The notes beneath the pieces were generated by a model that saw nothing but the letters and a program-made list of their open reading frames with translations, made no database searches and was not told the origin of the DNA. From Ruminiclostridium sp. (GTDB lineage: Bacteria; Bacillota; Clostridia; Oscillospirales; Ruminococcaceae), in assembly GCA_017465545.1 (NCBI GenBank), contig JAFTVY010000066.1:1-60812 (forward strand): a DNA stretch of 60,812 nucleotides. Reading direction: 5' to 3'. Within the stretch, counting starts at the first letter, position 1, and every line of letters begins with the position of its first letter. The position numbers were made by a program, and so were the translations under genes. This document shows, one piece after another, positions 2,767-14,412 of the stretch.

Positions 2767-2816
2767 TACAAAATCTCCCCGAATTTAATGCGATAGTCGT
2801 ATAGAAGTATTAAAAG

Positions 2817-2848
2817 CCACTTTTGATGTTGATGTCAAAAGTGGTTTT
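2817..2848 (+). terminator. Intrinsic terminator after the beta-propeller gene
   Basis: CCACTTTTGA (2817-2826) and TCAAAAGTGG (2835-2844) form a perfect 10-bp stem with an 8-nt loop, followed by TTTT. It lies 50 nt downstream of the beta-propeller stop codon. Confidence 0.8.
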
Positions 2849-2863
2849 GCGTTGCTTATGACG

Positions 2864-2892
2864 TTGACTTTTTATATCGACAATGCTATAAT
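2864..2892 (+). promoter_or_regulatory. Sigma-A-type promoter of the small membrane protein gene
   Basis: TTGACT (2864-2869), exactly 17 nt, then TATAAT (2887-2892), about 38 nt before the chosen GTG start at 2930. Confidence 0.8.
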
Positions 2893-2929
2893 TAACTGAC
2901 AGATAAATAAGAATTTGGAGGATGGGCGA

Positions 2930-3379
2930 GTGAAGAAAATATATGCGTGGGAACCTTGGTTCTTTATGTTTTTCGGATTGTTTCATTTACATAGAATATG
3001 GGGCTTGATTGACAGAACATCATATGCTGATTTTTGGTTGGGAATCTTGGAGAGCAAAGGTACCTTCTATTTTGTACTGATGGGTATTTTAGCTTTTTTA
3101 TGTGTTTGTGGAATAGTGACATTTTGTAAGAATAAGAAAAACAATTATTGGTGGCGATGGATATACATTTTCGGTGGTAGCTATGTCCTGTTTGACTTAT
3201 TTGCAATTGCAATCGAATTTAAGGTATGGAATGATTTATTATTGTTTATGTTTGATGTTAATTCTGCATGCTGGAATATCGTATGGGGATTTTTCGTTGC
3301 ATTAGGTGGATTTGTATTTTGTTTGGGTGCAAAATTGCTTAAACAAAGAAAAGCGCTAAATCCCAATTTGTCGAACTGA
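2930..3379 (+). CDS. Small four-helix membrane protein of unknown function
   Basis: About 149 residues with four predicted membrane helices (WFFMFFGLFHLHRIWG, the FYFVLMGILAFLCVCGIV region, the YIFGGSYVLFDLFAIAI region and the NIVWGFFVALGGFVFCLGA region). The tail is short and basic. I do not recognise the family. The frame is open from TTG 2915, but the GGAGG at 2917-2921 would lie inside such a start. GTG 2930, 8 nt after GGAGG, is the better choice. The gene has its own promoter and a shared downstream terminator, so it stands alone between the sigma pair and the aro operon. Confidence 0.65.
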   Translation: MKKIYAWEPWFFMFFGLFHLHRIWGLIDRTSYADFWLGILESKGTFYFVLMGILAFLCVCGIVTFCKNKKNNYWWRWIYIFGGSYVLFDLFAIAIEFKVWNDLLLFMFDVNSACWNIVWGFFVALGGFVFCLGAKLLKQRKALNPNLSN

Positions 3380-3389
3380 ATATAAAATA

Positions 3390-3422
3390 AACTCCAGAGA
3401 AGACGTTTTCTTCGCTGGAGTT
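3390..3422. terminator. Bidirectional terminator hairpin between convergent genes
   Basis: AACTCCAG and GAAGA at 3390-3403 pair with TTCTTC and CTGGAGTT ending at 3422. The hairpin sits between the plus-strand membrane protein gene and the minus-strand tyrA stop, and could serve both. The T-tracts are short. Confidence 0.65.
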
Positions 3423-3461
3423 ACTTCTTTATGGCTACCGCCCTTTTTTCGGGGAGACTTT

Positions 3462-4319
3462 TTATTTCTTATCAAACAAGGCTCTGCGTTGGGTGGAGTG
3501 GCGCATCATTGCTCTCATGCCCTCCACGTCATCAGTCTGGAGCATCTTCTTCAGCTCGCTGAATTTATCCATAAACATATCCATCTGACTGAGCAGAACG
3601 TCCTTATTGGCAATAAACAGCTCGCTCCACATAAGATCGTTTATTCTGGCGATACGGGTAAGGTCACGGAAGGAGTCACCTGTAAACTTCTCCATATCCT
3701 CCTTATCATTGCAGGTCATAAGAGTTATGGCAATGCAGTGTGTAAGCTGGGATAAGAAGCCTATCATCTCATCGTGATCTTCGGGTGACAGAGTAGCCAC
3801 GTTTGAAAATCCCAGCAGGCGACCAAGCTCAACGCAGGTCTGTACCGCTTCGGGAGTATTCTTATCCGTGGGAGTCACTATATAGTTTGCACCGATAAAC
3901 ATCTTATCCGTGCTGTTTTCTACTCCTGAGGATTCACGTCCTGCCATCGGGTGTGCCGCAATAAACTCAACGTCAGGGCGGAGCATATCCTGAATCTGAT
4001 ATACTATACCACGCTTTACACCAGTAACGTCGGTTATAAGTGCACCGCTTTTAAGCATAGCCTGATTCTGCTCTATCCATTCTACAAACACGTGAGGATA
4101 AAGGGCGAATATAACAAGATCCGCTTCGCCTATCAGCTTTTCGTCAAGCTCTGTCGAGCCTTCGTCAATAATATTTTCCTTTATTGCATAATCTATCGAG
4201 CTTTGCTCCTTAGTAATAGCGCTGATATGAAAGCCGAAGCGCTTGAGCACTCTGGCATAGCTACCGCCAAGAAGACCGAGTCCGACAATAAGAATCTTTT
4301 TACTTACGTCTACTATCAT
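3462..4319 (-). CDS. tyrA: Prephenate dehydrogenase
   Basis: 285 residues. Catalyses NAD(P)-dependent oxidative decarboxylation of prephenate to 4-hydroxyphenylpyruvate, the tyrosine branch. An N-terminal Rossmann motif, ILIVGLGLLGGSYARVL, is at about residues 9-25, and the family sequence AAHPMAGRE at about 140. The C-terminal helical dimerisation domain follows (LSPEDHDEMIGFLSQLTH, then FRDLTRIA). There is no ACT or chorismate mutase domain, so this is a stand-alone dehydrogenase. It is the last gene of the aro operon and its ATG overlaps the aroA stop by 4 nt. Within this operon pheA supplies the mutase step that makes its substrate. Confidence 0.93.
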   Translation of the reverse strand: MIVDVSKKILIVGLGLLGGSYARVLKRFGFHISAITKEQSSIDYAIKENIIDEGSTELDEKLIGEADLVIFALYPHVFVEWIEQNQAMLKSGALITDVTGVKRGIVYQIQDMLRPDVEFIAAHPMAGRESSGVENSTDKMFIGANYIVTPTDKNTPEAVQTCVELGRLLGFSNVATLSPEDHDEMIGFLSQLTHCIAITLMTCNDKEDMEKFTGDSFRDLTRIARINDLMWSELFIANKDVLLSQMDMFMDKFSELKKMLQTDDVEGMRAMMRHSTQRRALFDKK

Positions 4320-5518
4320 ACTAATTCCACCTTTGCTCCCAGACTCTTTATATCGCTAAAAAATCCGGGATAGCTTTTTCTGACAGCCTCTACGCCGTCA
4401 ATTTCTCCGCCCGTCTGTGTAAGGATTACGGACATAGCCATTACTATTCTGTGATCGTTGTGTCCGCCGAGCGTTACACTCTTATACTGAAGCTCCTGCT
4501 TCGGTACGATGATTTTATCCTCTCCGATTACGAGTCCACCGCCAAGCTTTCGCAGTTCGTCATCCATTGCCGCTCCACGGTCGCTTTCTTTCGACTTCAG
4601 TCGGTCTGTTCCTGTGAAGGTTGCACCGTTTTTCATTGCGGCAAGAGCGAACAGTATCGGTCCTAAATCGGGACAGTCGGATATATCAAGGGTGGGTGTA
4701 CCCTTCGATATTTCTTCAAAATACTCTACATATACCCTGTCGCCCTGAAGGCTGTCGGATTTCAGATTATCTATTTTCACTTCTGAGCCTATATGATTAA
4801 AGGCGTCAAGGAATGCGGCGTTGGAATAATCCCCTTCTATTCTACCCGAATATGAGTGTAGTCCGGATTTTCCGATCAGGATTCTGTACTCATCCGCAAA
4901 GGATACCTCTGCACCGAAGGATTTCAGCGCCGATATGGTAAGATCTATATAAGATCTGCTCTCAAAGGGAGGAAGAATCTCGATAGAAGATTCCTTACCA
5001 AGATACAAAAGAGCAAAAATAAGTCCCGTAATAAACTGACTGCTTATATCTCCACGGACTGTGTAGCTTCCGCTTTCCAGCCTTCCGCATACTGTTACAG
5101 AGCTTTTATCTTTATCAAATGTAAAAGCCTTTTCCCTGCAAAGCTCCTCGTATACTGTGAGCGGTCTTTCAAAAAGTCGCTCGCTACCTTTAAGGGTAAC
5201 GGGTTTTCCAAGGCATAAAGCCAGCGGGATGAAAAATCTGAGGGTACTACCACTTTCACGGCATTCTAAAACGGGAGTCTGTGCCTTCATAAAGCCTTCG
5301 GGATTCACCGTTACTTTATCGCCGTCGGTTATTATTTCAGCACCCAGCGCCTTAAGGCAATCGATACTTGCAAGGATGTCCTGACTGTAATCCACACCTG
5401 AAAGTATGCATTTTTCTCCTGAAAGTGCCGCACCGATAAGGTATCTGTGCGCCATACTTTTGGAAGGCGGAGCGGATATATCGCCTTTTAACCTGCAGGG
5501 CTCAAATATTGCTTTCAT
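4316..5518 (-). CDS. aroA: 3-phosphoshikimate 1-carboxyvinyltransferase (EPSP synthase)
   Basis: 400 residues. Transfers the enolpyruvyl group of PEP to shikimate-3-phosphate. The phosphate-binding start PPSKSMAHRYLIGAAL (about 17-32), the ESGSTLRFFIPLA motif (about 87-99) and the RLKSKESDRG segment near 305-314 are all present. The C-terminal HNDHRIVMA motif is intact. Length is slightly short for the family (about 420-430) but all signature regions are there. The gene begins immediately after the aroQ stop and overlaps tyrA by 4 nt, so translation is probably coupled. Confidence 0.93.
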   Translation of the reverse strand: MKAIFEPCRLKGDISAPPSKSMAHRYLIGAALSGEKCILSGVDYSQDILASIDCLKALGAEIITDGDKVTVNPEGFMKAQTPVLECRESGSTLRFFIPLALCLGKPVTLKGSERLFERPLTVYEELCREKAFTFDKDKSSVTVCGRLESGSYTVRGDISSQFITGLIFALLYLGKESSIEILPPFESRSYIDLTISALKSFGAEVSFADEYRILIGKSGLHSYSGRIEGDYSNAAFLDAFNHIGSEVKIDNLKSDSLQGDRVYVEYFEEISKGTPTLDISDCPDLGPILFALAAMKNGATFTGTDRLKSKESDRGAAMDDELRKLGGGLVIGEDKIIVPKQELQYKSVTLGGHNDHRIVMAMSVILTQTGGEIDGVEAVRKSYPGFFSDIKSLGAKVELV

Positions 5519-5950
5519 TTACTTCTGCCCCTCTGCCAAAAAATCTATAGCCTCAAGATAGCCATCTGTTCCGTGTCCCGTGATAGTCTTTACGCAGGCA
5601 AGACGGATATAGCTTATCTGACGGAAATCCTCTCTTTCCTCCACCTTTGAGATATGCACCTCAACGGTAGGGATATTTACAGATTTTACAGCGTCAAGAA
5701 TTGCTATACTTGTGTGGGTATATGCCCCGGGATTTATAACTATTCCGTCGGCATTTCCGTAAGCCTTCTGAATCTCGTCCACAAGGTCGCCCTCGTGGTT
5801 CGACTGATAAACCGAGACCTCTATTCCCTTTTTATCGCAATGCTCCTGAATTTTTTTCACAAGGTCGGAATAGGTCTCCTTACCGTAGTGATCAGGCTCT
5901 CTTATGCCCAGCATATTCAGATTAGGTCCGTTTATAACAAGAATCTTCAT
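5519..5950 (-). CDS. aroQ: Type II 3-dehydroquinate dehydratase
   Basis: 143 residues, the usual size of the small type II enzyme. Converts 3-dehydroquinate to 3-dehydroshikimate. The start ILVINGPNLNMLGIREPDHYG contains the flexible loop with the active-site Tyr. The NPGAYTHTSIAILDA motif carries the catalytic His region, and VEVHISKVEEREDFRQ closes the active site. The gene lies 27 nt after aroC and abuts aroA with no gap. Confidence 0.93.
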   Translation of the reverse strand: MKILVINGPNLNMLGIREPDHYGKETYSDLVKKIQEHCDKKGIEVSVYQSNHEGDLVDEIQKAYGNADGIVINPGAYTHTSIAILDAVKSVNIPTVEVHISKVEEREDFRQISYIRLACVKTITGHGTDGYLEAIDFLAEGQK

Positions 5951-5977
5951 CTTTTTTCTTCTTTCTTTTGTCTGATT

Positions 5978-7066
5978 TTATTTAAGATAATCCGTGCCGA
6001 ATCTCATAGCAAGGGCATCGCACAATACTATAGCGGACGCGGCATCCTGCACTACTCTTGCTCTGTGAACGATAGCAGGATCGTGTCTGCCCTTAGGAGT
6101 AAGTACGGTTTCAGTCATATTGCTGAAATCAATGGTATTCTGGGGTTTAAAGATAGTGGGAGTAGGCTTTATCGCAGTACGGAATATTATCGGCATTCCG
6201 TTTGTAATACCGCCGTTGATACCACCGTTATTGTTGGTTTCGCTGACTACCTTGTCGCCGTCCATTCTTAACGGATCGTTTGCCTTGCTTCCTCTCATAT
6301 CGGCTATATCAAAGCCTGCACCGAATTCAATTCCCTTTACGGCAGGGATAGAGAACATCATATGTGAAAGCATACCTTCTACGCTGTCAAACCAGGGCTC
6401 GCCTACACCTGCAGGCATACCAGTAATTGCCGTTTCGAGTATACCGCCTACGCTGTCCCCTTCTGTTGCCGCCTGAAGGATAGCCTGAGTCATTTTATCC
6501 TCGCAGGCTGTATCAAGCACCGCAAAGGTCTTTTTGTTAAGCTCTGTTATATCTGCATTCAGATTATCAAATTCTCTGTCCGATATACCTGCACATTTTT
6601 TTACGTGTGTTCCGATAGAAATGCCCTTCTTCATAAGAGCGTATCTGCATATTGCACCTGCGGCAACGAGTGCGGCGGTAATGCGACCGCTGAAATGACC
6701 GCCGCCACGGGAATCCTGATAGCCGTGATACTTGCACTGTGCAGTATAGTCGGCGTGGGAGGGACGGGCTACAGTCTTCATCTGAGAGTAATCGCCGCTT
6801 TGCACGTTTTCGTTTGGGATAAGAATGGTAATAGCAGTACCGGTAGTCGTACCTGCCACTACACCGCTGACGATTCTGAAATTATCCTGTTCCTTTCTCG
6901 GCGTGGAGATTTTACCGTCAGGACGGCGGAGCGTAAGCATATGGGCAATATATTCGTTGTTTACTTCAATGCCGGGTGCAAGTCCGTCGATTATCGCACC
7001 GATATATTCTCCGTGGCTTTCACCGAAAATGGTGACTGCCACGCTGTTTCCGAACGTGTTTTTCAT
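5978..7066 (-). CDS. aroC: Chorismate synthase
   Basis: 362 residues. FMN-dependent removal of phosphate from EPSP to make chorismate. The N-terminal GESHGEYIGAIIDGLAPG motif, the RPSHADYTAQCKYHGYQDSRGGGHFSGR region (about 100-127) and the late GRHDPAIVHRA segment are all typical of the family. The ATG follows the aroB stop by only 2 nt. This enzyme commits flux to both the PheA and TyrA branches encoded in the same operon. Confidence 0.95.
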   Translation of the reverse strand: MKNTFGNSVAVTIFGESHGEYIGAIIDGLAPGIEVNNEYIAHMLTLRRPDGKISTPRKEQDNFRIVSGVVAGTTTGTAITILIPNENVQSGDYSQMKTVARPSHADYTAQCKYHGYQDSRGGGHFSGRITAALVAAGAICRYALMKKGISIGTHVKKCAGISDREFDNLNADITELNKKTFAVLDTACEDKMTQAILQAATEGDSVGGILETAITGMPAGVGEPWFDSVEGMLSHMMFSIPAVKGIEFGAGFDIADMRGSKANDPLRMDGDKVVSETNNNGGINGGITNGMPIIFRTAIKPTPTIFKPQNTIDFSNMTETVLTPKGRHDPAIVHRARVVQDAASAIVLCDALAMRFGTDYLK

Positions 7067-7068
7067 TG

Positions 7069-8085
7069 TTATATACCCCCAAGGCCTTCCTTTGCCAGTC
7101 CGATAACGTCAATACATTTCATCGTCTTTATTTCAAAGCTTCCGACCTCGTCAACGATAGTTACCGCTACGGTATCACCGTCAGCCTTTTTATCGTGGAA
7201 TGCCGCATCGGTAATCTTCTGCCAGTCATATTCCAGAGTGCGGTAGAGGTTGCATTTTTTCAGCACCTCAATAACTCTCGGTCTGATTTTTTCACCGCAC
7301 ATAGGAATCATACCAAGTGCTACGCATTCGCCGTGGTAAAGCTCGGAAAGATTCTCACTGCTTTCGATTCCGTGACCTATCGTATGGCCGAAATTGAGTA
7401 TCCTGCGCAGTCCTGCTTCCTTTTCATCCTGCTCCACAACGCTTTTCTTGACGTTTAATGAGCGGATGATTATTTCATCTATATTGTCTTCAATATCCTT
7501 TGTTTCAAAAATATCGAAAAGCTCCTTGTCTGACGTAAGGGACATTTTTATAGCCTCTGCAAGACCGTTGGAAATCTGTCTTTCGGGCAGAGTTTTCAGA
7601 AGCTCGGGATCGATAATAACCTTTTTCGGCTGATAGAAGGCACCGACGATATTCTTTACACCACCGAAGTTTATAGCTGTTTTTCCACCGATGGAAGAAT
7701 CTATCTGGGAAAGAAGCGTCGTAGGGATATTGTAGAAATCGATTCCTCTCATATACGCCGATGCCGCAAAGCCTGAAAGATCTCCGACTACGCCACCGCC
7801 GACCGCAACAACGCAGTCCTTTCTTGAAAAGCCGTTATCCAGCATAGTCTGAAGAAGCTTTCCGAAAACCTCAAGACTTTTTGAGCCTTCGCCCATTTCT
7901 ACAGTACAGATTACAGCCTCTCTGCATTTTTCCGCAACTGTTTTTGCATACTGTGCAGGAACGCCCGAATCCGTCACCACAAGAACACGTCTGTCAAGCT
8001 TCAGATGCTTATCAACGTCGGCAAGGATTCCTCTTTCTACAATAATATCGTAGCTATCCTCACCCAAATTCATACGAATCGTCAT
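7069..8085 (-). CDS. aroB: 3-dehydroquinate synthase
   Basis: 338 residues. NAD- and metal-dependent cyclisation of DAHP to 3-dehydroquinate. It shows VVAVGGGVVGDLSGFAASAYMRG (about 93-115), the PTTLLSQIDSSIGGKTAINF motif and the metal-binding LNFGHTIGHGIES segment. It follows pheA by 9 nt and precedes aroC by 2 nt. A little shorter than the usual 350-360 residues, but with no missing motif. Confidence 0.94.
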   Translation of the reverse strand: MTIRMNLGEDSYDIIVERGILADVDKHLKLDRRVLVVTDSGVPAQYAKTVAEKCREAVICTVEMGEGSKSLEVFGKLLQTMLDNGFSRKDCVVAVGGGVVGDLSGFAASAYMRGIDFYNIPTTLLSQIDSSIGGKTAINFGGVKNIVGAFYQPKKVIIDPELLKTLPERQISNGLAEAIKMSLTSDKELFDIFETKDIEDNIDEIIIRSLNVKKSVVEQDEKEAGLRRILNFGHTIGHGIESSENLSELYHGECVALGMIPMCGEKIRPRVIEVLKKCNLYRTLEYDWQKITDAAFHDKKADGDTVAVTIVDEVGSFEIKTMKCIDVIGLAKEGLGGI

Positions 8086-8094
8086 ATTACACCT

Positions 8095-9183
8095 CTATAT
8101 TCCGGTATGCGGTGCAAAGGTACCTGCTACCTTCAGCTTGTCGCATACCGCACCTAATTCTTCTAACATTTTCTTACCCTCATCGGTATCTGTACAGCCG
8201 TCAATTTCCACGTAGAAATAATACTGCCAGGAATGTTTTTTCAGCGGTCTGCTTCTGAGAGCTGTCATATTGAAGCCGTACTTACCTATAATGCTGATTG
8301 CATTGGCAAGTGAACCTGCTTCGTTCTTTACTGTGAACATCAATACAGAGCTTGAAAGTGAGGGTGATGCGGCTCTGGTCTTTGAAAGAACTGCAAAACG
8401 GGTAGTGTTCTCTCCGCTTTTATTTATGTTGGCTTCTAAAATCTTCAGTCCGTAGATTTCAGCAGTTTCCACGCTTGCGATTGCACCGAGGGACTTATCC
8501 TTCGACTTTGCCACCGTCTTTGCGGCAAGAGCCGTATTATTGGCTTCTTCTGTTTCAAAGCCTCTCATCTTGATATATTCGTGACACTGGCTGAGCGCCT
8601 GAGGATGGCTTGTTACCTTTCTTATATCCTCTACAGTCGCATCAGGAGTACCGAGCAGATTCTGATGTATCTCCAGCTCGTAAATGCCGTTTATGAACAG
8701 CTCACCTGAGAAAATGAGGTCGATGGTCTGTCCCACTTCACCTGCATAGCTGTTTTCGATAGGGAGTACAACCAGGTCACTTTCGCCGCTGACAACCGAG
8801 TTATAGGCAGAGTTGAAATCTCTGTAGGAGATTCTGTTACCTTCGGGGAATATTCTTCCTGCGGCAATGTGGGCAAAGGCACCCTCTACACCGCTGTAGG
8901 CTACCTTGAGTCCGCTCTGCATACGATACTGATATGCACGGGACACCTTCATCATATGCTTCAGGTAATCGATGTAATAGCCCTTCAGCGTTTCGTCCTC
9001 AATCATAGCGGAGTTTGTCTCGATAACGGCATTCTCCCGATTTTCATCAAGGATAGGCAGACCGAATTCCTTTTTGTATTCATATACCATTTCGGCGGCT
9101 CTCATACGTTCTACGAAAAGCTCAGCCATCTGCTTATCTACAGAGTTTATTATTTTTCTGGCTTCTTCCAGCTTGTTTCCCAT
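8095..9183 (-). CDS. pheA: Bifunctional chorismate mutase/prephenate dehydratase (P-protein)
   Basis: About 362 residues in three parts: an AroQ-type chorismate mutase helix bundle (about 1-90, EARKIINSVDKQMAELFVERM), a prephenate dehydratase domain (about 108-285, VAYSGVEGAFAHIAA, then LPIENSYAGEV and TTRFAVL) and a C-terminal ACT domain (about 288-362). The ACT part has a GSLANAIS segment and an alternative SRPLKKHSWQYYFYVE, which in the family binds phenylalanine for feedback inhibition. The frame is open from GTG 9192, but ATG 9183 lies about 10 nt after AAAGGA and is the better start. The gene makes phenylpyruvate and also supplies prephenate for TyrA. Confidence 0.93.
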   Translation of the reverse strand: MGNKLEEARKIINSVDKQMAELFVERMRAAEMVYEYKKEFGLPILDENRENAVIETNSAMIEDETLKGYYIDYLKHMMKVSRAYQYRMQSGLKVAYSGVEGAFAHIAAGRIFPEGNRISYRDFNSAYNSVVSGESDLVVLPIENSYAGEVGQTIDLIFSGELFINGIYELEIHQNLLGTPDATVEDIRKVTSHPQALSQCHEYIKMRGFETEEANNTALAAKTVAKSKDKSLGAIASVETAEIYGLKILEANINKSGENTTRFAVLSKTRAASPSLSSSVLMFTVKNEAGSLANAISIIGKYGFNMTALRSRPLKKHSWQYYFYVEIDGCTDTDEGKKMLEELGAVCDKLKVAGTFAPHTGI

Positions 9184-9200
9184 TTCTGACACTTCCTTTA

Positions 9201-10229
9201 TTAAAGCTTGTCTGCAATATCAAGAATAAGCTTTTCTGTCTTATCCCAACCAAGGCAAGGGTCTGTGATGGATTTACCGAATACGTGTTCTCCGATACCC
9301 TGTGCGCCGTCTTCGATGTAGCTTTCAATCATAAGTCCCTTTACAAGCTTCTTTATGTCAGCGTTCTGATTGCGGCTGTGAACTATATCCTTTGCGATAC
9401 GAACCTGCTCAAGGTACTGCTTGCCTGAGTTGTTGTGGTTTGTATCTACGATAACTGAAGGATTAACGAGATTTGACTTTTCGTAAAGCTCTCTTACCTT
9501 GAGAAGGTCTTCATAGTGGTAGTTGGAAACGCTCTTTCCTGCGTAGTCAACGTAACCACGGAGAATAGCGTGAGAATAGGGATTGCCCTCGCTGGTTACC
9601 TCCCAGCCTCTGTAAATGAAGGTGTGGCTGGACTGTGCCGCTACTATTGAATTCATCATTACGCTGAGATCGCCGCCTGTAGGGTTCTTCATACCTACGG
9701 GTACGTCTATACCGCTGGCCGTAAGTCTGTGCTGCTGATTTTCAACAGAACGGGCGCCGATTGCGATGTAGGAGAGAAGGTCGGAAAGGTAACGGTGATT
9801 TTCGGGGTAGAGCATTTCGTCTGCGCAGGAGAAATCATAATCACGTAAAGCCGCTAAATGAAGCTCACGGATTGCAACGATACCCTTGTACATATCAGGC
9901 TTTGCGTCGGGATCGGGCTGGTGAAGCATACCCTTGTAGCCCTGACCTGTAGTTCTGGGCTTGTTTGTATAGATTCTGGGGATGATGATAATCTTATCAG
10001 ATACCTGCTCCTCAATTCTGCGGAGTCTTGAAATGTATTCGAGTACAGGCTCGCTGTGGTCTGCGGAGCAGGGACCGATTACAAGAATGAACTTGTCGGA
10101 GGTGCCTTCGAATACGGCACGGATGCTCTCGTCACGCTGTGCCTTTACCTGAGCCATTTTTTCTGTTAAGGGGAAATCCTTCTTTACGTCCTGGGGAATA
10201 GGGAGCTTTCTGTGGAAATTCATTGACAT
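9201..10229 (-). CDS. aroF: 3-deoxy-7-phosphoheptulonate (DAHP) synthase, AroF/G/H type
   Basis: 342 residues. Condenses PEP and erythrose-4-phosphate, the first step of the shikimate pathway. Class I-alpha features: VIGPCSADH (about 51-59), IIPRIYTNKPRTTGQGYKG, the NPTGGDLS segment and the VDTNHNNSGK metal-site region. ATG 10229 is preceded by AGAGG at 9 nt. It is the first structural gene of the operon, downstream of the leader-peptide/terminator element at 10382-10540, so the pathway entry step is the most directly controlled. Which amino acid inhibits the enzyme cannot be read from the sequence; the symbol aroF is a family label only. Confidence 0.92.
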   Translation of the reverse strand: MSMNFHRKLPIPQDVKKDFPLTEKMAQVKAQRDESIRAVFEGTSDKFILVIGPCSADHSEPVLEYISRLRRIEEQVSDKIIIIPRIYTNKPRTTGQGYKGMLHQPDPDAKPDMYKGIVAIRELHLAALRDYDFSCADEMLYPENHRYLSDLLSYIAIGARSVENQQHRLTASGIDVPVGMKNPTGGDLSVMMNSIVAAQSSHTFIYRGWEVTSEGNPYSHAILRGYVDYAGKSVSNYHYEDLLKVRELYEKSNLVNPSVIVDTNHNNSGKQYLEQVRIAKDIVHSRNQNADIKKLVKGLMIESYIEDGAQGIGEHVFGKSITDPCLGWDKTEKLILDIADKL

Positions 10230-10381
10230 TGTTTTGTACCTCTTTCGTTTAAATTTGCTTTTCTGAGAATTAACAGGTCTGCAAACTCTATATTATGAAT
10301 ATCCTGAAATGACGTCTTTTTTCAAACAAATATAGAATAATAAAGAATTCTGTCGGGGATCTGCGTCGGTGTAACGGAAAA

Positions 10382-10433
10382 TAAAAAAACCGCACCTTGC
10401 TTTTATGCTTTTTAAAAAGCACAGCAAATGCGG
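10382..10433 (-). terminator. Attenuator terminator of the aro operon leader
   Basis: On the minus strand CCGCA and a TTTGCT/GTGCTTTTT arm pair with AAAAAGCA, AGCAA and TGCGG around a short loop (10390-10433), followed by seven T residues (10383-10389 on the complement). It lies between the leader ORF stop (10463) and the aroF start (10229) and inside the same transcript, so it must be read through for the operon to be expressed. No T-box signature (AGGGTGG-type) is present. Confidence 0.85.
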
Positions 10434-10462
10434 ACTGTCCGTGTATTTTGTTTCCGATGATT

Positions 10463-10540
10463 TTAATTCTCGGTTTTCACAAAAGACGGGCAGCCCTTAT
10501 TAAAGTAATAAAAATAAAAGTAAAACTTGTTATTATTCAT
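10463..10540 (-). CDS. Aromatic-amino-acid leader peptide (25 residues, Phe/Tyr run)
   Basis: A short ORF on the minus strand with AAGGAGG 8-9 nt before its ATG (10540). It encodes MNNNKFYFYFYYFNKGCPS, then six further residues ending EN and TAA (10463-10465). Residues 6-13 are eight consecutive Phe/Tyr codons (four of each). It lies 34 nt after a consensus promoter and just before an intrinsic terminator and aroF. The codons for Cys-Pro-Ser contain CTGCCCGT (complement of 10486-10493), which can pair with ACGGACAG (complement of 10435-10442) at 7 of 8 positions. This is the layout of classical leader-peptide attenuation: ribosome stalling at Phe or Tyr codons would change the RNA fold and let polymerase pass the terminator. 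Confidence 0.88.
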   Translation of the reverse strand: MNNNKFYFYFYYFNKGCPSFVKTEN

Positions 10541-10573
10541 TTTAGCTACCTCCTTTGTGAATTTCTGTTTTAG

Positions 10574-10602
10574 ATTATATCACATTAAATCGGTAAAGTC
10601 AA
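10574..10602 (-). promoter_or_regulatory. Promoter of the aro operon leader
   Basis: On the minus strand TTGACT (complement of 10597-10602), 17 nt, TATAAT (complement of 10574-10579). The expected start lies just before the leader ORF ribosome site. Confidence 0.85.
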
Positions 10603-10633
10603 TAGCATTCTTAAAAAAAATTTAAAGTCTCTA

Positions 10634-10669
10634 CAAAAAAAGACAGTATAGCGGTTATGCTATACTGTC
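10634..10669 (-). terminator. Terminator of the diguanylate cyclase gene
   Basis: GACAGTATAGC and GCTATACTGTC (10642-10652 and 10659-10669) form a perfect 11-bp stem with a 6-nt loop, followed on the minus strand by seven T residues. Confidence 0.88.
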
Positions 10670-10701
10670 GGAATTTATTCTTTTGTCGGTTCTGCGGGTT
10701 A

Positions 10702-12879
10702 TTATTCTGTTACTGCAGGTTCTTCTGACGCTGTGTCAGCTACTGCAGGAGCATCGCCGCCGATAACGTCCTCTTCTTCTACTGTAGTAGGAACAGGCTT
10801 CTTTACGACTTCCTTGTTCAGGATACCGAAGTTTGACTTACCGCTCTTCTTAATCTTATACATCGCATCGTCTGCCATACCAATGATTTCATCCACTCTC
10901 ATGGTTGTATCCTGGATAATGGAGATACCGATACTTGTATTTACAGAAAGCTTATCGCCGTTATCGGATACGAAGCCTTCCTTCAGGGTATTGAGGATCG
11001 TCTGTGCAATCTTTGTAGGATCGTTTACGTCTACGTTGCGGATGCATACGATAAATTCGTCGCCACCGTAACGGCCTGCTGTACCGAAGCCCTCTGTAAT
11101 CTCTGTGATCGTCTGTGCAACGAACTTGAGAACGGAGTCACCGGTTGCATGGCTGTACTTGTCGTTGAATATCTTGAAGTCGTCAACGTCGATAAAGAGA
11201 ATTGCAAATTCGCTCTTACGTACGTTGATAAGATCGATTTCGTTATCAATGGTGCGCTCGATGGATTCACGGTTATAAAGACCTGTAAGGCTGTCGTAGC
11301 TTGCTCTTTCGGTAAGAAGCTTTTCACTCTTCTTTGCACGGTCGATATCAACGATAACACCGACAATCTTAGCCACGTTGCCCTCTCTGTCTCTGATGGT
11401 AGAAGTACGCATGAGAATCCAGATATAGTCGCCGTAGATGTTCTTCCAACGGTACTCGTTGCCCTCGAACTCTTCACCCTTGGAGAGTCTTTCGAGATCC
11501 TTATGGTAACGATCGGAATCGTCGGGATGCGTCTTTGCCTTAAGTAAGAAGCTGTCGCCGAAGTGATCGGAAGGAGCACGGTAGCTGAACTTCTTGTTGA
11601 AGTTGTTGGAGAAGATAACGTCGTTTGTCTTGAAGTTCCATTCAAAGATGATGTTATCTGACATTTCTACGATTGTACGGTATCTGCCTTCGCTTACGAT
11701 GATGTCATCGATAAGGTCGTTGAAGGATCTTGCAATTTCACCATACTCGTTGTTTGCCATAATATTGATTCTTGTTTCGTGGTCGCCACGGCGTACCTTT
11801 ACAAGAGTTTCTTCGATCAGCTTTAAGGGTTTTGTTACAACGAATACTAAGATAACTGCGGCTACTATCATAATAATAGAAACTGCAACTATTGTACCGA
11901 TGATACCGCCTGCCGCATTGCCGGAAGCTGTGTATGCCTTATCGGTTTCAGCGATTACCGCAATTGTCCATGCGTCTTCGCCACCTTCTGACATTGCTGT
12001 CTTAGTTACAAAGCCTACTGTGTTACCACTACCTGTGCTCTGTCCCTTGAAGTTATCGATACGATTTGCAGTGCCGACACCTGCCGCAGAAACAAGCTTG
12101 TTGAATTCATCACGAGCGCCGTCACCAAGATTGCCAAGGTATGTACCATCGATGATAGAGCCAAGAGAGTCTATCATAACAAGTCTTGTATTTGTTGCAA
12201 ACTGTGAGCCTACGGCAAAGTTCTTCATTCTTGTGTAGTTGAAGAACACTAAAACATCATAGTTGCCGCTCTTCTGCTTTACAACGAGCTTTATATCAGC
12301 TGAGCTACCCGTTGCATCAGGGAAAAGAGGATCTACCATATTGGAAGAGCCTTCTGACTCGTCGGAATCTGTAGCGTAATTATCCTTGGAATAGCAATAA
12401 ACAACGTTATCCTTATTGAGCTTGGAGATGTTCTTCAGAGCCTTCTTTGCTTCTGCGCTGTTCTTGAGATCCTTTACCGTGCTGTCTTCACCTGTGCAGT
12501 AGTAAAGCTCACCATAAGAGTCGGTGATAACGATTCTTGCCAGGTCGAACATTGAATCAAATGCAGAATTGTCCTCGCTTACGGCATTGCCGATCATAAG
12601 AGAATATACGTTTATAATTTCATCCGCCGCATTCGTATTGCCATCCTTTGTGAAGGCGGATATGCGGGAATCCTCTGCGATCTGCTTTGTGGTGTTTACA
12701 AGGGTATCGAAATATTCCGACAAGCTTGCCGACTGTCTTTCGGTCATATCCTTTGCCGCATCAGTATAATTCTGCAGTGCTATGCTGTTCATCTGTACGT
12801 TAGCCACAATTGCAAATGCGACTGAGGGGATGATGATAAAGCATACAAGCACTGTAATCAGTAAGGTTTTGATTCTCAT
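10702..12879 (-). CDS. Membrane diguanylate cyclase: Cache-like sensor, HAMP, PAS, GGDEF
   Basis: 725 residues. A transmembrane helix at about 5-28, an extracellular region of about 290 residues (Cache-like by position and size), a second helix (about 322-346), HAMP (about 347-395), PAS (about 400-525, ending in a PAC-like WILMRTSTIRDREGN strand) and GGDEF (about 535-690). The catalytic motif is intact (GRYGGDEFIV), with FIDVDDFKIFND supplying a metal-binding Asp. The position of the inhibitory RxxD site reads EGFG, so classical product inhibition is probably absent. The C-terminal 30 residues are acidic and Ala/Glu-rich. It would make cyclic di-GMP in response to an extracellular ligand. Monocistronic, with its own promoter and terminator. 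Confidence 0.88.
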   Translation of the reverse strand: MRIKTLLITVLVCFIIIPSVAFAIVANVQMNSIALQNYTDAAKDMTERQSASLSEYFDTLVNTTKQIAEDSRISAFTKDGNTNAADEIINVYSLMIGNAVSEDNSAFDSMFDLARIVITDSYGELYYCTGEDSTVKDLKNSAEAKKALKNISKLNKDNVVYCYSKDNYATDSDESEGSSNMVDPLFPDATGSSADIKLVVKQKSGNYDVLVFFNYTRMKNFAVGSQFATNTRLVMIDSLGSIIDGTYLGNLGDGARDEFNKLVSAAGVGTANRIDNFKGQSTGSGNTVGFVTKTAMSEGGEDAWTIAVIAETDKAYTASGNAAGGIIGTIVAVSIIMIVAAVILVFVVTKPLKLIEETLVKVRRGDHETRINIMANNEYGEIARSFNDLIDDIIVSEGRYRTIVEMSDNIIFEWNFKTNDVIFSNNFNKKFSYRAPSDHFGDSFLLKAKTHPDDSDRYHKDLERLSKGEEFEGNEYRWKNIYGDYIWILMRTSTIRDREGNVAKIVGVIVDIDRAKKSEKLLTERASYDSLTGLYNRESIERTIDNEIDLINVRKSEFAILFIDVDDFKIFNDKYSHATGDSVLKFVAQTITEITEGFGTAGRYGGDEFIVCIRNVDVNDPTKIAQTILNTLKEGFVSDNGDKLSVNTSIGISIIQDTTMRVDEIIGMADDAMYKIKKSGKSNFGILNKEVVKKPVPTTVEEEDVIGGDAPAVADTASEEPAVTE

Positions 12880-12935
12880 AAAAATAACCTTTCCTTTCCT
12901 GTATTTCTACGATTTTTGATTCATTATCCATAAAC

Positions 12936-12961
12936 ACGTTCAAAATACGCCGATTGAACGT
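12936..12961 (-). promoter_or_regulatory. Hairpin in the 5' leader of the diguanylate cyclase gene
   Basis: ACGTTCAA (12936-12943) and TTGAACGT (12954-12961) form an 8-bp inverted repeat between the promoter and the start codon. It has no T-tract, so it is not a terminator. It could be an operator or an mRNA structure; I see no cyclic di-GMP riboswitch consensus. Confidence 0.4.
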
Positions 12962-12985
12962 TAAACGAATTTTCATACAGTTAAC

Positions 12986-13014
12986 AGTATAACACAAAAC
13001 TTCAAATTAGTAAA
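12986..13014 (-). promoter_or_regulatory. Promoter of the diguanylate cyclase gene
   Basis: On the minus strand TTTACT (complement of 13009-13014), 17 nt, TATACT (complement of 12986-12991). The leader is about 105 nt long. The stretch 13015-13118 between this and the divergent MFS promoter shows nothing else I can identify. Confidence 0.65.
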
Positions 13015-13118
13015 TGCATTTATGACGGATTTATGTAAATTGCCCAATATAAACTTTATCCGTTTGTTGAAAAAGCTGAAAAATATATTACCGCAGGTAC
13101 ACTTCACCGTATATAAGC

Positions 13119-13147
13119 TTGATATTTAAAGACTTCTGATATATAAT
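13119..13147 (+). promoter_or_regulatory. Promoter of the MFS transporter gene
   Basis: TTGATA (13119-13124), 17 nt, TATAAT (13142-13147), 44 nt before the ATG at 13192. Confidence 0.75.
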
Positions 13148-13191
13148 TAACAGAGAATTTATCTACCTACTATATGATAAGGATATAACAG

Positions 13192-14412
13192 ATGTTCAGA
13201 ACCTATAAATCAACCACCCTTGCCTGCTATATCGGATATATAACCCAGGCGGCAGTAAATAACCTTGCCCCGATACTTTTTATAGTATTTCAGCAGAAGT
13301 ACAATATCGGCTATGAGCTTATCAGCCTGCTGATAATCACAAACTTTGCCACCCAGCTGATAGTTGACGGACTGGCGGTAAAGCTGTGCAGGATAGTCAG
13401 CACCCGTACCCTTTCAGTTGCCGCTCATTTTTTCTGTGCGGCAGGACTTATCATGATGGGAACGCTACCTCTCGTTATCAGCGAAACCTTCGTAGCTCTT
13501 ATGCTGTCGGTGATAACCTACGCTATAGGCGGAGGACTTATAGAGGTGCTTGTAAGCCCGATAATAGAGGCAATACCGAATGATTCGGGTAGTGCAAAGG
13601 CGTCGGCAATGAGCCTGCTTCATTCCTTCTACTGCTGGGGACAGATGGCTGTGGTACTGCTTTCGACGGGATATATCTTCTTTTTCGGAGACGGATACTG
13701 GTTTCTGCTACCTGTGATATGGGGACTGCTTCCGCTTATCAACGGCTTTGTATTTACAAAGGTTCCCCTTTCCCCTTCCTTATCCGAGGACGTGGGGATG
13801 CCGGTTATAAAGCTACTGAAAGAAAGAGGCTTTGTGCTGATTCTTTTGCTTATGCTGTGTGCGGGTGCCTGCGAGCTTACCATGTCCCAGTGGTCGTCTC
13901 TCTTTGCACAAAGAGGACTTCTGGTCTCAAAGCAGGTGGGAGACCTTTTAGGGCCTTGCTGTTTTGCTCTGCTGATGGGTACGGGACGTGTACTGAACAG
14001 CATTTTTGCAAAGAAAATAAATATGTACGCTCTTCTTTGCTGTAGCGGTCTGCTCTGCCTCGTCTGCTATATAACGGTGTCACTTTCCGATAATGCGGTG
14101 CTCTCGCTTATCTTCTGTGCTTTATGCGGTCTGTCGGTAGCCGTGCTGTGGCCGGGTACGTTTTCTCTTGCGGCGGCAGGCTATAAAAAGGGCGGTACGG
14201 GTATGTTCGGTGTAATGGCGTTACTCGGAGACTGTGGCTGTGGCTTCGGCCCGTTTATTGCAGGAATGATATGCGACGCAGTTACAAACGGCGGTGGCAG
14301 TGAGGCGGCAGGTATGAAAACGGGCTTTGCCTTCTCCTCGGTTTTCCCCGTTCTGCTTATTGCATCCTCTCTCATTCTGTATTTTATGCACAAAAAGAAG
14401 AAGGATAACTGA
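13192..14412 (+). CDS. Major facilitator superfamily transporter
   Basis: 406 residues with about 12 hydrophobic segments and a central loop near 195-210, as in MFS permeases. GTGRVLNSIFAKKI near the start of the second half resembles an MFS loop 8-9 signature, and the protein ends in a basic HKKKKDN. The substrate cannot be assigned from sequence; the general look is that of sugar or small-molecule permeases in clostridia. AAGGA precedes the ATG by 8-9 nt. It has its own promoter and is followed by a terminator, so it is probably not in one transcript with the flippase. Confidence 0.8.
   Translation: MFRTYKSTTLACYIGYITQAAVNNLAPILFIVFQQKYNIGYELISLLIITNFATQLIVDGLAVKLCRIVSTRTLSVAAHFFCAAGLIMMGTLPLVISETFVALMLSVITYAIGGGLIEVLVSPIIEAIPNDSGSAKASAMSLLHSFYCWGQMAVVLLSTGYIFFFGDGYWFLLPVIWGLLPLINGFVFTKVPLSPSLSEDVGMPVIKLLKERGFVLILLLMLCAGACELTMSQWSSLFAQRGLLVSKQVGDLLGPCCFALLMGTGRVLNSIFAKKINMYALLCCSGLLCLVCYITVSLSDNAVLSLIFCALCGLSVAVLWPGTFSLAAAGYKKGGTGMFGVMALLGDCGCGFGPFIAGMICDAVTNGGGSEAAGMKTGFAFSSVFPVLLIASSLILYFMHKKKKDN

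Follow-up and report, generated by a model that had tools for sequence, protein, structure and literature searches.

A mixed phenylalanine/tyrosine leader peptide and its candidate transcription attenuator ahead of an aromatic amino acid operon in Ruminiclostridium

The pheA attenuator of Escherichia coli combines a short control-codon ORF, alternative helices and an intrinsic terminator ahead of aromatic target genes, and its leader peptide gene, pheL, contains Phe codons and is not known to contain Tyr codons. T-boxes bind tRNA directly and do not need translation of a leader. The window analysed here, a stretch of 60,812 nucleotides from Ruminiclostridium sp., carries a leader that shares the ORF, the helices, the terminator and the aromatic targets with the pheA type (RF01859, Phe_leader). 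It differs in its mixture of Phe and Tyr codons, in a region 1 that is the leader's own ribosome-binding site (RBS), in a stop codon enclosed in a hairpin and in its target, a whole-pathway operon; against RF01859 it scores 14.6 bits, the gathering score being 55. An earlier, sequence-only reading had assigned it to the pheA/trp style of E. coli; attenuation is supported, whereas the layout departs from that style. The leu-phe_leader of Lactococcus (RF01743), also a Gram-positive leader RNA and named for Leu and Phe, is likewise distinct, with 15.7 bits for the window leader and a gathering score of 70. The T-box (RF00230) precedes aroF in other species of the window's genus, but the window leader has no T-box match.

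Leader peptides are known in Firmicutes. Regular His leader peptides are reported to replace T-boxes at hisS/hisZ in Bacilli (PMC2965389), a leucine-rich attenuator is reported for Staphylococcus aureus (PMC5794164), and a survey of 2005 enters phenylalanine with the attenuators and tyrosine with the T-boxes (PMC1262725). The hisS/hisZ leaders resemble the present one in occupying a T-box's place and differ in amino acid, genes and lineage (PMC2965389). Closest by target is uORFC-13-1, described ahead of aroF with an upstream ORF, a possible promoter, an RBS, one or more Phe codons and an adjacent terminator, for which its authors propose attenuation; its 24 examples come only from Acholeplasma and environmental sequences and contain ‘at least one phenylalanine residue’ (PMC8632094). 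It shares with the window leader the aroF target, the ORF with RBS, the Phe codons and the adjacent terminator; the hosts are others and the section that describes the motif does not mention a Tyr codon (PMC8632094). In the open-licence literature searched, as far as its text was accessible, no description of a mixed Phe/Tyr leader in Clostridia was found; this leader therefore appears to be a new form of a known kind of attenuation.

Rfam searches give no match at the gathering score across the whole window and eight listed matches in the leader (10230-10660) at E up to 10, all below threshold. RF00230 is not among these eight, in keeping with the earlier claim of a leader without a T-box, and the name uORFC-13-1 does not occur among the matches of window or leader. 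A T-box or another described riboswitch in the leader is rejected on these searches, at the gathering score and at relaxed E. From comparison and folding, we read the leader as a ribosome-mediated transcription attenuator that senses charged tRNA-Phe and tRNA-Tyr, with a probability of about 0.87.

Parts of the leader and its operon

All parts lie on the minus strand. The predicted promoter (10574-10602) consists of a -35 box TTGACT (10602-10597), a 17 nt spacer and a -10 box TATAAT (10579-10574) with TG just upstream, and agrees with consensus at 11 of 12 positions; promoter-like sites across 3000-13200 number 19 for 19.4 expected, i.e. without excess. Region 1, TTCACAAAGGAGGTAGC (10545-10561), includes the leader RBS GGAGGT (10553-10548) and pairs with region 2. 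The 25-codon leader ORF, MNNNKFYFYFYYFNKGCPSFVKTEN* (10463-10540), is kept in relatives, and its eight consecutive control codons, FYFYFYYF (10502-10525), sit in the stall window computed as permissive. A run of eight TTY/TAY codons occurs once in the window and in none of 100 shuffles; it also occurs once on both strands of the 2.6 Mb genome, where the reversed-pattern control gives 0. Chance origin of the run is rejected, the run being unique in the genome and absent from the shuffled windows. Promoter, RBS, ORF and run had all been claimed from the letters alone, and all are at their places.

Region 2, GGGCTGCCCGT (10486-10496), has either region 1 or region 3 as its partner, according to the pairing tests, and is prolonged by CTTTTGTGAA (10476-10485), whose partner is the 5′ half of region 1, two-sided changes being seen in 9/9 pairs (columns 15-25 with 99-108 of alignment A1). 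The stop-codon hairpin CCGAGAATTAAAATCATCGG (10454-10473) has covarying arms and is also marked by its folding z scores. Region 3, the antiterminator partner ACGGACAGTCC (10432-10442), ends in the CC that forms the base of the terminator stem, and its pairing with region 2 is backed by covariation; the intrinsic terminator (10383-10433) is made of the arms CCGCATTTGCT and AGCAAGGTGCGG followed by T7. Folding of the window leader RNA gives z = -4.7, and the predicted fold of the unoccupied leader has three helices, namely the RBS stretch with region 2, the stop-codon hairpin and the terminator.

In the window, GGGCTGCCCGT (10496-10486) pairs with ACGGACAGTCC (10442-10432) at 10 of 11 positions, including one G·U. 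The shorter pairing reported before, CTGCCCGT with ACGGACAG at 7 of 8 positions, is as stated. Its claimed exclusivity fails for these 8 nt by themselves, which leave the terminator untouched, and holds for the extended helix, which takes the basal CC (10433-10432). Antiterminator and terminator have only this CC in common, so exclusion operates at the stem base only; loss of the stem base beside the T-run would be enough to prevent termination in the window. The terminator, said to lie just before aroF, is present about 150 nt ahead of the aroF ATG (10229).

The seven-gene aromatic operon proposed earlier is borne out by TIGR and Pfam profiles, with the order aroF, pheA, aroB, aroC, aroQ, aroA and tyrA on the minus strand. 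It opens with the DAHP synthase gene aroF (9201-10229; TIGR00034, 260.6 bits, cut-off 173.2), followed by pheA for chorismate mutase-prephenate dehydratase (8095-9192; PF01817 and PF00800, over cut-off), aroB (7069-8085; TIGR01357, 323.9 bits, cut-off 305), aroC (5978-7066; TIGR00033, 382.1 bits, cut-off 212.2) and aroQ for a type II dehydroquinase (5519-5950; TIGR01088, 182.5 bits, cut-off 169.85). The last two are aroA (4316-5518; TIGR01356, 255.2 bits, under the cut-off of 287.25) and tyrA for prephenate dehydrogenase (3462-4319; PF02153 and PF20463, over cut-off). The features of an attenuator are found together here: a short ORF with an RBS directly upstream of an operon, a run of codons for the end products, and exclusive antiterminator and terminator helices.

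Conservation and pairing among related leaders

Comparison covers 81 aroF loci, i.e. the best 80 listed from a scan of genome contigs plus the window; one of them (L061) is without upstream sequence. Ahead of aroF, 40 of the 81 have an in-frame ORF that is rich in Phe/Tyr codons and carries a G[GA]CTG[CT] or GGC[AT]GC motif. The covariance model R1, built from these 40 leaders, adds five (L036, L050, L065, L067 and L069) at E below 1e-6 among the 41 other loci, and so 45/81 loci have the leader; by motif, ORF and R1 no leader was found in the upstream stretch searched at the remaining 36, L061 included. R1 was also run on the 39 genomes behind 40 loci, 37 of them without a leader directly upstream of aroF and three (L009, L010 and L055) serving as positive controls. 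Matches at E ≤0.1 occur in 23/39 genomes: the three controls, two counted before (G107, the genome of L047, and G117, that of L069), three weak ones without a leader ORF, and 15 new genomes whose leaders have the Phe/Tyr run and are absent from the stretch searched upstream of aroF. Hits at L086 (E 0.08) and at L090, L143, L144 and L145 (E 0.001 to 0.6) are excluded from the counts; at the last four a convincing leader ORF was not found. Genes of such relatives were named by visual inspection of the sequence. In two genomes with a complete stretch (G073 and G098), 6.5 to 7 kb separate leader and aroF because aroF is the last of the aro genes, and at L159 and L160 the gene after the leader resembles an aminotransferase gene or pheA. 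From these varied first genes, the leader therefore tends to stand at the head of the operon, whichever gene comes first.

Leaders occur in at least six families of Clostridia (coded f1, f15, f19, f24, f38 and f93). With R1 and stricter filters, none was found in 59 other genomes of the window's genus; a second model, R2, places the leader in at least 4 of 392 genomes of the class, with six candidates scored per genome, and in 1 of 16 genomes of the family of G229. Some single cases stand at the margin. At L055, on a contig labelled Treponema bryantii, a leader with altered region 3 and terminator precedes aroF; this spirochaete-labelled bin may reflect transfer or a binning error. L063 has a distinct short ORF, MNNKLNFNNNFAFSFSFFGFTAEGVNLLCKNV, about 190 nt ahead of aroF, with Phe and without Tyr; it is accompanied by an unrelated terminator-like hairpin and may represent an independent Phe leader. 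L153 and L154, from two further families, have shorter leader-like ORFs (RFYY or RFYYY) ahead of an aminotransferase-like gene, and L153 has a pairing of its own, CTTTCTGT with ACAGAAAG.

Further tests use 59 distinct leaders, 39 close to the window's and 20 others. L131, whose leader is identical to that of L130, was left out, as were L153 and L154 (region 3 of L154 being unclear); L009, a near copy of the window, was dropped from the 59-leader tests and from the arm-swap tests of the close group, and L092 was retained despite a weak model match (35.3 bits), its ORF and pairings being clear. Both Phe and Tyr are encoded in 58 of the 59 ORFs, the exception (L036) lacking Tyr, and at least two of each in 57/59; Trp occurs once in the whole set. 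Conservation holds for the Phe/Tyr codons, whereas the flanks and the remainder of the ORF start are variable. Loss of the run or of its reading frame in homologous leaders had been named beforehand as a test: the run is kept, L036 alone being without Tyr and L065 and L067 shifting frame after the run.

The helices were examined by an arm-swap test that compares native with swapped partner arms between leaders; all covariation statistics given here treat the leaders without regard to their tree. Across the 59 leaders, native and swapped energies are -20.0 and -16.1 kcal/mol for helix 1:2, -16.4 and -15.5 kcal/mol for 2:3, and -22.3 and -18.7 kcal/mol for the terminator helix 3:4, with 0/5000 permutations as good in each case. 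Helices 1:2 and 3:4 show two-sided changes in 17 of 24 pairs on A1. RNAalifold on A1 recovers the terminator and a small hairpin and misses 1:2, perhaps owing to competition between alternative helices. Helix 2:3 is nearly invariant in the close group alone, where a covariation signal was not found (395/2000; 1859/5000; weak on A1). Alignment A2, a chosen 40 of the 59 leaders that includes divergent ones, gives 93.0% paired positions for 2:3 versus 20-39% when the arms are slid, two-sided changes in 7/10 pairs and 0/500 shuffles as good in percentage paired. Among single cases, 2:3 is rewritten as AGGTCGTT/AACGACCT in L050, and L130, L132 and L136 differ from L133 by a U-A to C-G exchange. Leader-peptide attenuation, as first proposed, is thus strongly supported by the conservation and covariation seen in this comparison.

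The arms of the stop-codon hairpin likewise covary, native and swapped energies being -7.4 versus -4.6 kcal/mol in the close group and -5.2 versus -2.6 kcal/mol in the other leaders (0/5000 for both). Its z score is below -1 in 36/39 leaders and, with other segment ends, in 48/59; the stop codon is wholly unpaired within the hairpin in 30/59. The hairpin would bring regions 2 and 3 together and would be opened by the terminating ribosome.

Ribosome position and the choice of helix

Through its 25-codon Phe/Tyr mini-gene, the leader very probably turns the operon on when either amino acid is short. A shortage of charged tRNA-Phe or tRNA-Tyr would stall the ribosome early or midway in the run, with region 2 left free. 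Region 2 would then pair with region 3 ahead of the synthesis of the terminator 3′ arm, the terminator would lose its stem base and the operon would be transcribed. When both charged tRNAs are plentiful, the ribosome would pass region 2 to the stop codon and open the stop-codon hairpin; region 2 would be covered, or would pair again with region 1 once the ribosome has passed, region 3 would fall to the terminator and transcription would stop. Re-pairing with region 1 would apply in the window, where 7 codons separate region 2 from the stop codon. Without translation, region 1, containing the RBS, would pair with region 2 and the default would be off. The helices expected of such a leader, terminator and antiterminator alike, are found computationally.

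Stall positions were modelled by folding the RNA downstream of the ribosome only, its leading edge being assumed to lie 15 nt beyond where the P-site codon starts. As long as the terminator 3′ arm is still to be made, the mean probability that the antiterminator occupies the basal CC is 0.97 when the ribosome is at the first or middle Phe/Tyr codon (1.00 in the window), 0.07 at the last Phe/Tyr codon and 0.00 at the stop codon. With the ribosome at the stop codon, the finished RNA gives the terminator 0.99, and a ribosome stalled on the last Phe/Tyr codon is likewise predicted to bring termination. In a scan by codon, the antiterminator remains available through codon -3 (0.96-0.97), is partly so at -2 (0.60) and is hardly available from -1 onwards. 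Between codons -5 and -3, the share of Phe/Tyr is 95-100% (the register itself places Phe/Tyr at codon -1), and both amino acids occur inside the permissive codons in 56/59 leaders (not in L036, L129 and L130). In the model, the last stall positions that still keep region 2 free are those filled by Phe/Tyr codons; this geometric fit of the run is established by calculation, as the parts, their conservation and the helix covariation are by alignment. In the finished RNA with a first-codon stall, 2:3 and terminator are near balance at the window's basal CC (0.52 versus 0.47), and the antiterminator is ahead in 28/59 leaders with a first-codon and in 30/59 with a middle-codon stall. Near balance in the finished RNA implies that kinetics must matter.

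Stall position sets the helix in these calculations if pairs across the ribosome are excluded, and does not do so in the window if they are allowed. With such pairs allowed and a stall in the run, 1:2 wins in the window (17.5 pairs at the first and at the middle codon, with 2:3 at 0), 2:3 appears only when the RBS is blocked as well, and a ribosome that has reached the stop codon is spanned by 2:3 (9.0 pairs). In the proposed attenuator, pairing across the ribosome is assumed to be blocked, either by the body of the ribosome or by another one that loads at the RBS. A leader that gauges general ribosome availability or translation speed, with the RBS-sequestering helix as the switch and the Phe/Tyr run secondary, would draw on this win of 1:2 despite a stalled ribosome, on 1:2 covering the leader RBS and on its strong covariation. 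We consider it very improbable, since the stall positions computed as permissive are where Phe/Tyr codons cluster and the window's downstream genes make Phe and Tyr. A protein regulator or an undescribed riboswitch acting on the terminator, with the ORF as a by-product, is the least probable of the alternatives weighed. It could account for a TATGC or TTGTGC high in the terminator 5′ arm (A1 columns 169-177), which many leaders keep beyond what the basal stem needs and which attenuation leaves unexplained; against it stand the kept Phe/Tyr codons amid a variable ORF start and flanks, and the Rfam searches, where the window has no family at the gathering score and the leader's matches are all sub-threshold down to E 10.

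The conserved tail of the peptide raises another alternative. TnaC is the model for peptide arrest in answer to a free amino acid, and here the Phe/Tyr run and the GCPS tail might stall the ribosome on free Phe or Tyr, the amino acids of the KGCPS tail being widely conserved. This conservation is accounted for by the pairing of region 2: the codons of the Gly-Cys-Pro-Ser tail are region 2 itself, and where Gly becomes Asp (GGC to GAC), a G·U turns into A-U and pairing is kept. L065 and L067 retain the RNA motif GGCTGCCCG in another reading frame after the run (AARLL and AARIL), which points to selection at the RNA level in these two; on these frameshifted tails an arrest peptide is rejected. 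Order and number of Phe/Tyr codons also differ between leaders, with the stop 8 to 19 codons past the run. Arrest is accordingly given very little weight, and the attenuator that senses charged tRNA-Phe and tRNA-Tyr, which in cells would respond to both amino acids, is retained.

Origin of the operon and the T-boxes of the genus

The window's aroF shares 98% identity with that of L009 and 76-92% with those of the remaining loci among the best 80 listed. Identity to congener aroF is 62-70%, except for a partial copy in G040 (97%). In a tree of 49 chosen sequences, which leaves out L121 and this partial copy, 22 congener aroF form one clade (99/97) with the window outside. The flanking GGDEF gene belongs to the genus, with 85% identity in G040 and 79% in G028. 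Both genomes have an empty site, in which the window's neighbour genes are adjacent and the operon is absent between them; in G040 the operon is on a different contig that ends within aroF, the leader region being beyond the contig end. Between these neighbours, the window has at 2767-10701 the aro operon, the leader and a 154-aa ORF (2915-3379), for which a Pfam match was not found. Insertion at 2767-10701 by horizontal transfer is probable from these comparisons, and horizontal acquisition of operon and leader looks the simplest reading. Most named records are metagenome assemblies, and single placements, such as that of L055, may be binning errors.

T-boxes precede aroF at 7/15 same-genus loci at the gathering score and at 8 of the 13 loci searched again at E 0.001, as well as 9 of 10 second aroF copies (two of them under the gathering score). 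As to T-boxes, the earlier remark that Firmicutes usually control aromatic genes by T-boxes, TRAP or repressors fits the genus. By eye in the alignments, the specifiers of the first eight T-boxes are six UUC (Phe) and two UAC (Tyr), those of the second copies eight UAC and one UUC. Six congeners (G013, G014, G025, G026, G028 and G032; loci L099-L111 and L161-L170) have two aroF each, one with a Phe T-box and one with a Tyr T-box, as judged by eye. The window genome has one aroF match, with the mixed leader; elsewhere it has eight T-box matches, four of them over the cut-off, and one of 73.5 bits lies ahead of a pheS-like gene (named by eye). Judged by these congeners, one mixed leader thus appears to stand in for two single-amino-acid switches.

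A wider reading, towards which we incline with reserve, is that of a self-contained Phe/Tyr either-or attenuator, moved horizontally with whole aromatic operons among gut Clostridia, which would stand in for the pair of Phe and Tyr T-boxes in the window's lineage and whose first helix would shut the RBS, so that the first ribosome essentially decides. By comparison, the leader is a well-supported case in Clostridia of attenuation by a leader peptide in the classical manner, its control run mixing Phe and Tyr. Since two T-boxes stand ahead of the genes for this step in congeners, two RNA solutions to the control of one pathway lend themselves to natural comparison within a single genus. Such a switch would need only the ribosomes, tRNAs and RNA polymerase of its host, and an operon may therefore carry its own control, which may explain why leader peptides can spread.
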